64,000 nucleotides of DNA from Nitrospirota bacterium. Lineage in GTDB: Bacteria > Nitrospirota > Thermodesulfovibrionia > Thermodesulfovibrionales > Magnetobacteriaceae. Shown piece after piece: positions 22,203 through 64,000 of the stretch. Position numbers and translations under genes: made by a program. Within the stretch, counting starts at the first letter, position 1. The number at the start of each line of letters is the position of its first letter. The notes below the pieces were generated by a model. It saw only the letters and a program-made list of their open reading frames with translations. It had not been told where the DNA came from and did not search any database. Location: the NCBI GenBank assembly GCA_015233725.1, contig JADFXD010000005.1:1-64000 (forward strand). Direction: 5' to 3'.

Positions 22203-22336
22203 TTAAATTCTTCATAATTTAAAATATAACAATGATACTGAAGTTTAAACTAATTTCAACAGATAAGTCCATACCCTATAGTTATCCATATCACGGTAAA
22301 TCTGTTCTCCATTGAGTAGATGGCACCCACCCCTTA

Positions 22337-22412
22337 AGGGGTCAAGGGGACTGGTCCCCTTGCAGGGGAGGTCTGAGGAGGGGGCGGAGCCGCCCTCCTT
22401 CTTTCTTTTCTT
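22337..22412 (+). repeat. Modular palindromic repeat copy R11
   Basis: GGGGTCAAGGGGACTGGTCCCCTTGCAGGGGAGGTCTGAGGAGGGGGCGGAGCCGCCCTCCTTCTTTC; flanks CCACCCCTTAAG / CTTAAGGGTGG. Confidence 0.9.
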
Positions 22413-30744: not shown

Positions 30745-30813
30745 GAGGGGAAAAAAAGAAGAGGGCGGCACTACCCTTCTTTTCTTCTTTCTGGTCAAAT
30801 GCGATTGCCCTGT
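30745..30813. repeat. Half-element of modular repeat joined to a TIR-like end, R13
   Basis: AGAGGGGAAAAAAAGAAGAGGGCGGCACTACCCTTCTTTTCTTCTTTCTGGTCAAATGCGATTGCCCTG. Confidence 0.75.
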
Positions 30814-39421: not shown

Positions 39422-39575
39422 ATACCACCCCTTTATATAAAATTTTGCGCTTATCCTAAGGCTGGCAGTATTAAAACATACAATGAAGAGGCATGTCAAG
39501 AAGAAGTAAGGTGTTCCTGTGAACAAGGTAAGTACATGGACAGAAGTTTTTATATAAACTTAGGATTGAGATTAT

Positions 39576-39645
39576 GGGGTCAAGGGGACTGGTCCCCTTG
39601 CAGGGGGTTCTGAAGGGGGGCGGAGCCGCCCCTTTCTTCTCTTCA
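39576..39645 (+). repeat. Modular palindromic repeat copy R16
   Basis: GGGGTCAAGGGGACTGGTCCCCTTGCAGGGGGTTCTGAAGGGGGGCGGAGCCGCCCCTTTCTTC. Confidence 0.92.
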
Positions 39646-62690: not shown

Positions 62691-62840
62691 AAATGATACC
62701 TCCTGAGTTCCTTTAACTCCTTAAAAAAAAGATAACAAATGACCTCTCCAAGCGTCAATCGTTATTAGGATATATAAACGCCACTACCTTTGTCAACAGT
62801 TAAAAAAGAGCGAATAGCTTGAGATGTTAAGGTTGAAATT

Positions 62841-63008
62841 CAGGGCAATCGCATTAGAGAATTTTATGTGCTGCAAATAGTCTGCCTTCGCTGTAAACCC
62901 AAGTATGCGCAAGAAGGGGTCAAGGGGACTGGTCCCCTTGCAGGGGGTTCTGAAGGGGGGCAGCGCCGCCCCTTTTTTTTCTCTTTCTGGTCAAATGCGA
63001 TTGCCCTG
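62841..63008. mobile_element. MITE-like element with 15-bp perfect TIRs and 10-bp target duplication, carrying repeat R27
   Basis: CAGGGCAATCGCATT…AATGCGATTGCCCTG flanked by GGTTGAAATT at 62831-62840 and 63009-63018. Confidence 0.8.
62916..62990 (+). repeat. Modular palindromic repeat copy R27
   Basis: GGGGTCAAGGGGACTGGTCCCCTTGCAGGGGGTTCTGAAGGGGGGCAGCGCCGCCCCTTTTTTTTCTC. Confidence 0.92.
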
Positions 63009-63059
63009 GGTTGAAATTCAGTTGCCAAATAGCCATAAGACATGTTATGGTAGAGGGGG

Positions 63060-64000
63060 ATGAATAAGATCGCGATATTAAATGCGGGTGGGCAGTACTG
63101 TCACCTGATTGCGAGGAAGGTCAGGGATCTGGGCGTATTCACGGAGATAGTCGACTTTGACGTTGCCCCCGACAGTCTCAAGGATGTCAGGGGGATAGTG
63201 CTCTCCGGAGGGCCTGATAGTGTGTATATGCCTGATAGTCCGCGGGTCTCGGAGGGGTTGTTTGACCTTGGTATTCCCATCCTGGGGCTCTGTTATGGTC
63301 ATCAGCTCATAGCTCACATGCTCGGTGGCAAGGTGCATGGCGGTGAGGTCAGGGAGTATGGGGTCGCAATCGTTAAGATAGTAAAGAGCGTGGGGCTGTT
63401 TGAGGGCTTAGGCGACACCCAGACGGTGTGGATGAGTCACGGCGACTCGGTTGAGCGGTTACCCGATGGCTTTGAGCTTCTGGCCTCCAGCGATACATGC
63501 AGGGTTGCGGCCATGATGCACCGGCAAAGGGGCATCTATGGCCTGCAGTTTCATCCTGAGGTCGCCCATACAGTCTGTGGGCAGGAGATCATAAGGAACT
63601 TTGTCTTTAACATCTGCAAGGTCACCACAACGGACTGGCAGCCCAAGGACCAGATCGATATCCTTATGAGGAACATAAGGGATAAGGCCAAGGGCAGGAA
63701 GGTCATCTTTCTTGTCAGTGGGGGAGTTGACTCTACCGTGGCATTTTATCTATGCGTCAGGGCGCTCGGTAAGGAAAACGTAAGGGGTATCTACATAGAC
63801 ACCGGGCTTATGCGCAAAAACGAAACGATTAACATTATCAATGATTTCAAGGCCATTGGCGTCGATAACATAGACGTCGTTGACGCAAGCCATAGGTTCA
63901 TAGACGGCATCGGGCAGGAGTGTAATCCTGAGCGTAAGAGGGAGATAATCGGCAGGATGTTTATCGAGGCCGAGGATGACCTGCTTGACAAGATCGAGTC
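63060..64000 (+). CDS. guaA: GMP synthase (glutamine-hydrolysing), truncated at window end
   Basis: ILNAGGQYCHLIARKVRDLGV, ILGLCYGHQLIAHMLGG, GLQFHPEVAHT, VIFLVSGGVDSTVAFYLCVRALG; open to last base. Confidence 0.95.
   Translation, partial: MNKIAILNAGGQYCHLIARKVRDLGVFTEIVDFDVAPDSLKDVRGIVLSGGPDSVYMPDSPRVSEGLFDLGIPILGLCYGHQLIAHMLGGKVHGGEVREYGVAIVKIVKSVGLFEGLGDTQTVWMSHGDSVERLPDGFELLASSDTCRVAAMMHRQRGIYGLQFHPEVAHTVCGQEIIRNFVFNICKVTTTDWQPKDQIDILMRNIRDKAKGRKVIFLVSGGVDSTVAFYLCVRALGKENVRGIYIDTGLMRKNETINIINDFKAIGVDNIDVVDASHRFIDGIGQECNPERKREIIGRMFIEAEDDLLDKIE

Follow-up and report, generated by a model that had tools for sequence, protein, structure and literature searches.

A non-autonomous ISAs1-family MITE upstream of guaA in a magnetotactic Nitrospirota genome and statistical phasing of ISAs1 ends to predicted sigma70-type promoters

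The 168-bp element that lies upstream of guaA in a Candidatus Magnetobacterium-type (Nitrospirota) genome can be read as a non-autonomous MITE of the ISAs1 family, and ISAs1 transposition appears to favour a fixed distance upstream of sigma70-type promoters, a reading to which we assign a probability of roughly 80%. The element is located in the window, by which we mean the whole stretch of 64,000 nucleotides that was analysed (contig JADFXD010000005.1 of assembly GCA_015233725.1); the genome measures 3.32 Mb and its assembly is 88.6% complete. A MITE-like element had already been recognised here in an earlier note made from the sequence of the window. What is new beyond that note is the ISAs1 identity, the promoter-phased insertion and the occurrence of the inner repeat on its own, and the promoter-phased insertion of ISAs1 is a more interesting result than the MITE call itself.

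As listed in Table 1, the perfect 15-bp TIRs, the 10-bp target duplication (TSD) and the 168 bp enclosed between them are all present where the earlier note had placed them, and its distance of about 50 bp to the start of guaA corresponds to an ATG located 51 bp past the element. Both the first bases of the element and, by chance, the next bases of the right flank are CAG, which lengthens the direct repeat to 13 bp, GGTTGAAATTCAG. The extended match between the ends is 17/18, and as single-stranded DNA the 168-bp element gave a folding z-score of -4.45 compared to shuffled sequences. The element contains no ORF of at least 100 aa, and its left neighbour is a divergent gene for a phosphohexomutase-type protein. 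The element is a MITE: it is short and non-coding, it is bounded by TIRs and a TSD, and it has dispersed copies. A second exact TIR site in the window is probably the end of a decayed element, the partner end of which was not recognised.

Table 1. Positions of the MITE, its parts and the neighbouring guaA features in the window
Feature	Position	Strand	Details
Second exact TIR site	30798..30812	-	R-type end
Left TSD copy	62831..62840		10 bp, GGTTGAAATT
ISAs1-type MITE	62841..63008	+	168 bp
Left TIR	62841..62855	+	CAGGGCAATCGCATT, L-type end, followed by AGA
GC-rich two-hairpin repeat module	62914..62978	+	Taken as the repeat R27 of the earlier note
Intrinsic-terminator-like hairpin and T tract	62952..62985	+	At the end of the module, reading toward guaA
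Right TIR	62994..63008	-	CAGGGCAATCGCATTTGACC on the - strand, R-type end
Right TSD copy	63009..63018		GGTTGAAATT
Putative guaA -35 box	63022..63027	+	TTGCCA, 13 bp from element end
Putative guaA extended -10	63046..63051	+	TGTTATGGT, hexamer TATGGT (4/6)
guaA (GMP synthase), 5' part	63060..63998	+	ATG at 63060; gene runs past the window

The TIR 15-mer, exact or with one mismatch, occurs at 40 sites in the genome, and since the reversed control pattern gave 0 sites, chance is excluded for the TIR. A genome-wide search for paired ends, as suggested in the earlier note, yielded 11 paired elements of 76-199 bp in this genome, 17 short TSD-bearing pairs with the TIR CAGGGCAAACGCATT in the closed same-family genome G011, and more in sister genomes. 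Of the 11 pairs, 4 have kept a TSD of at least 8/10, namely the window copy (10/10) and those on contigs C143 (9/10), C58 (8/10) and C114 (8/10, with an apparent indel), and in the other 7, including one with perfect TIRs, the TSD was not recognisable. The TSDs of the 17 pairs in G011 are identical over 10/10 in 14 cases and 9/9 in 1, and match in 9/10 in 2. Four congeners carry 36-103 sites each of the 18-bp pattern, and at least one site was found in 10 of 14 listed same-family genomes of other genera. Identical TIRs also bound MITEs of 142-208 bp with 9-10 bp TSDs in Thermoflexia and Thermomicrobiales (Chloroflexota) and in Rubellimicrobium. An exchange of flanks by recombination between copies was considered and rejected, as among the 40 ends a 10-bp flank match of at least 8/10 was found only between one element's two ends.

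The earlier note had also proposed to look for an IS with the same TIR, and this IS was found in the ISAs1 family, with the TIR CAGGGCAA[AT]CGCA[CT]T and a 10-bp TSD; together with the further copies, this match supports the MITE reading. An intact 1233-bp ISAs1 (L094) in the same-family genome G015 has the TIR CAGGGCAAACGCACT and the 10-bp TSD CAGCCAATAA, and its transposase of 372 aa scored 403.5 bits against the NCBIfam model transpos_ISAs1 (NF033564); beyond this model only IS1380 was matched, weakly. The TIRs of ISPa60 and of the ISAs1 element of Xanthobacter flavus pDCA are CAGGGCAATCGCATG and CAGGGCAATCGCACT, respectively, both with a 10-bp TSD, and a CAGGG start combined with a 10-bp TSD is common to ISPa60, ISVa13 and the ISAs1 elements of X. 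flavus pDCA and Azospirillum thermophilum. The window TIR begins with CAGGG as well and is identical to the ISPa60 TIR in 14 of 15 positions. Among 33 autonomous ISAs1 elements the TSD was mostly 10 bp, and 9 bp in three, the window copy having 10 bp. The likeness to the ISAs1 family (e.g. ISPa60 and ISVa13) thus covers the TIR, the TSD of 10 and sometimes 9 bp, and the promoter phase described below, which is the same as in the MITEs, whereas the window element differs in being only 168 bp long, in lacking a transposase and in carrying a terminator-like inner module. Judged from a TIR shared with autonomous ISAs1 and a TSD of 8-10 bp, the element is an ISAs1-family derivative. A profile search with NF033564 found no ISAs1 transposase in the window's own assembly, 88.6% complete as it is, and with the same model four congeners showed no intact ISAs1 transposase gene, only a contig-end fragment in G003. 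IS copies often collapse in draft assemblies. Derivatives of this kind usually, though not necessarily, share a genome with their cognate transposase. With none found in the host assembly, the element is either orphaned there, or it was moved in trans or by a mover that is missing from the draft.

The GC-rich module inside the element is a dispersed repeat in its own right, with 418 copies in the genome, of which 19 are in the window, where they lie within 91-62978 (e.g. 2241-2307, 22336-22401, 39575-39638 and 62914-62978) and are mostly intergenic. Congeners have 52-370 copies, and 0-4 were found in the remaining genomes of the family and order that were searched, so the module is nearly confined to the genus. 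It is also found inside at least three other MITE-like families with unrelated inverted ends, TATAGC (L036-L039), TAAGTACMTG (L040/L043/L054/L055) and TTACTGTAAA (L044-L051), and units with the last type of end show apparent 8-bp target duplications when inspected by eye. By description the module resembles SPRITE, BOX and RUP of Streptococcus pneumoniae, which are small and terminator-like and occur nested with further small repeats (PMC10969869), but those belong to another host and are not tied to these ends, whereas here one module occurs in several families with distinct TIRs. An ordinary gene terminator was rejected as an explanation of the module, its orientation to neighbouring genes being mixed in the window (table read by eye). 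The only Rfam match, to suhB, was not credible, with a sub-threshold 20.4 bits against a gathering score of 41.

When the flanks are read outward from the ends of the elements, sigma70-like promoters turn up repeatedly at the same distance. A -10 was called when a hexamer matched TATAAT in at least 5 of 6 positions with A2 and T6 kept, and the offset is the distance of the hexamer start from the element end; the promoters are throughout predictions from sequence. In 265 non-redundant flanks the -10 was located at offset 42 in 36, at 41 in 18 and at 43 in 11, followed by 2, 3 and 1 at offsets 44-46 and a background of 1.71 per offset further out, and the peak was seen in most genome sets. These flanks collapse to 261 separate clusters at 60% identity, and shared ancestry is therefore no explanation of the peak; 62 of the 261 independent flanks have a -10 at 41-43 versus 5 expected. 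The consensus of the flanks reads as an AT-rich extended -10, TATGnTATAATA, preceded by a weak -35 for which the spacer is mostly 18. Outward TGnTATAAT motifs peak at offsets 41-43 (9, 18 and 6), and the inward control is flat.

For the MITEs, the empty site was rebuilt and the insertion point was shifted within the same neighbourhood, approximately 50 bp each way. In this permutation 16 of 40 TSD-verified MITEs had a -10 at 41-43 versus 2.94 expected (p = 2e-5, the permutation floor), G011 alone gave 7 of 17 versus 1.44 expected (p = 2.6e-4), and the control offsets 22-24 and 50-52 were null. In the flanks of the inner module, which as a repeat is defined independently of these ends, no -10 peak was seen. 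Because the range 41-43 was first picked from the MITE data, the autonomous ISAs1 elements provide a cleaner, separate test. The first 28 of these included 7 at offsets 41-42, and five that were added after the hypothesis was set gave 2 matches (a Rheinheimera phage and Ruminococcus albus), bringing the total to 9 of 33 at 41-43 versus 1.28 expected (p = 5e-6). The autonomous elements with the phase come from other phyla, plasmids and phages. A consensus -10 at 41-43 is absent from both sides in 24 of the 40 MITEs and 24 of the 33 autonomous elements. The MITEs show a second, broader -10 cluster at offsets 31-35 (11 versus 4.7, p = 0.005), about 10 bp or one helical turn nearer to the element than the main peak, which was not found in the autonomous ISAs1 (1 versus 1.85, p = 0.86), and we base no claim on it. 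Statistically, ISAs1-family ends are thus phased to predicted outward sigma70-type promoters, at a distance that is fixed for the family.

The position of the ends could also have arisen if an ordinary ISAs1-type MITE inserts at random and copies survive only where genes and core promoters are unbroken, hence just upstream of promoters. MITEs are in general intergenic (PMC10969869), as are most module copies in the window, and a selection filter of this kind would purge insertions within the -35 and -10. Such a filter predicts a one-sided step, however, and not a peak of 3 bp with 2, 3 and 1 at the following offsets; moreover, random placement in the same neighbourhood accounts for 2.9 of the 16 MITEs observed, and autonomous ISAs1 of other phyla, plasmids and phages have the same offset, which makes random insertion followed by selection improbable. 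A more serious alternative, though less likely than not, is that the phase is real and stems from DNA structure, i.e. bent or destabilised AT-rich promoter DNA, instead of contact with RNA polymerase. The best flank consensus is indeed an AT-rich extended -10 with a weak -35, and in E. coli the insertion of IS elements at bgl has been attributed to stress-induced duplex destabilisation upstream of a promoter (PMC8836124). Yet some 42 bp separate the target from the AT-rich box, and the motif is strongly oriented, TGnTATAAT peaking outward and not inward. It is very hard to maintain that what really moves is the GC-rich inner module and that the TIRs are there by coincidence. The 418 genomic copies of the module mostly lack these TIRs, but the limits of the 168-bp unit coincide exactly with TIR and TSD, and family genomes rich in TIR sites, such as G011 and G012, have 0-1 copies of the module. 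The module is essentially absent from these genomes, and the TIR element therefore moves without it.

For promoter-phased insertion of ISAs1 we propose that a DDE transposase of the ISAs1 type, provided in trans, would recognise the 15-bp CAGGGCAATCGCATT ends and insert the element through a 9-10 bp staggered cut, as suggested by the identity of TIR and TSD with those of intact ISAs1. This would leave about 41-43 bp between the element end, near -53 to -55, and the -10 hexamer downstream of it, and the transposase may be guided by promoter-bound RNA polymerase, or by the DNA that its alpha-CTD contacts. Counting the -10 hexamer as -12 to -7, a junction at offset 41-42 falls at about -53 to -54 and the 10-bp TSD covers about -54 to -44, which would correspond to the upstream boundary of the RNA polymerase footprint and the region that the alpha-CTD touches.

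Promoter-upstream targeting by a bacterial DDE transposase has been described as an unusual property of two Mutator-type lineages (PMC3942029). As with ISAs1, the insertions of TnGBS, ISLre2 and ISKra4 (p-MULT 3 and 4) are at a fixed distance upstream of sigmaA/sigma70 promoters, which for TnGBS and ISLre2 is 15-17 bp upstream of the -35 (PMC3942029). A -10 at 41-43 would place the -35 about 17-20 bp from an ISAs1 element (spacers 17-18), almost the same spot. The difference is that their transposases belong to the Mutator superfamily, whereas the L094 transposase fits the ISAs1 model and matched no Mutator-type model at the threshold used, and it was not assigned to that superfamily. ISAs1 is not mentioned in PMC3942029, and no report of ISAs1 promoter targeting was found among open-licence PMC papers. 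We favour guidance by the polymerase because TnGBS and ISLre2 use almost the same spot with a transposase of another superfamily. Wider still, and in our estimate with an even chance of being right, ISAs1 transposases across many phyla would target promoter-bound RNA polymerase (upstream edge/alpha-CTD), with an origin independent of the Mutator-type TnGBS, ISLre2 and ISKra4, and throughout the genomes of magnetotactic Nitrospirota the MITEs would thereby set cassettes with terminators immediately upstream of core promoters.

At guaA, the putative -10 has an offset of 37 from the element end, so the window copy is promoter-proximal and outside the sharp 41-43 peak. Inserted just upstream of the core promoter, the element would leave the promoter intact and set the terminator-like hairpin between guaA and the upstream DNA, and it may thus insulate guaA or remove upstream promoter elements. 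The comparison for the empty site that the earlier note proposed met guaA upstream regions in sister species that are diverged or non-syntenic, and in two of these species the -35 reads TTGTCA. The congener G001 has no element upstream of guaA. In the congener G003 (L115) a TIR end of the opposite type is located 13 bp from the guaA -35 (TTGTCA) and about 50 bp upstream of the ATG, flanked by bases unrelated to those in the window. As the window TSD is intact and the promoters have diverged, these look like two separate, parallel insertions at the same position; one old insertion that flipped is a possible alternative.

Two further observations concern guaA itself. Between the predicted -10 hexamer and the ATG there are 8 bp (63046-63060), and the gap is similarly short in two congeners (L115 and L116), so the guaA mRNA may be leaderless. 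In four genomes of the genus the guaA ORF is 603-617 aa long, compared to about 513-533 aa in the further members of the order that were searched, with 39-46% identity between the two.

If promoter-phased insertion of ISAs1 is correct, promoter homing that spares genes would have evolved more than once, since ISAs1 is widespread and its transposase fits a different model. In uncultured bacteria, the ends of MITEs and IS elements would then mark active promoters from sequence alone, and the idea that RNA polymerase guides the landing offers a simple model that can be tested. The shared terminator-like module, in turn, shows small cassettes spreading between MITE families with different ends.
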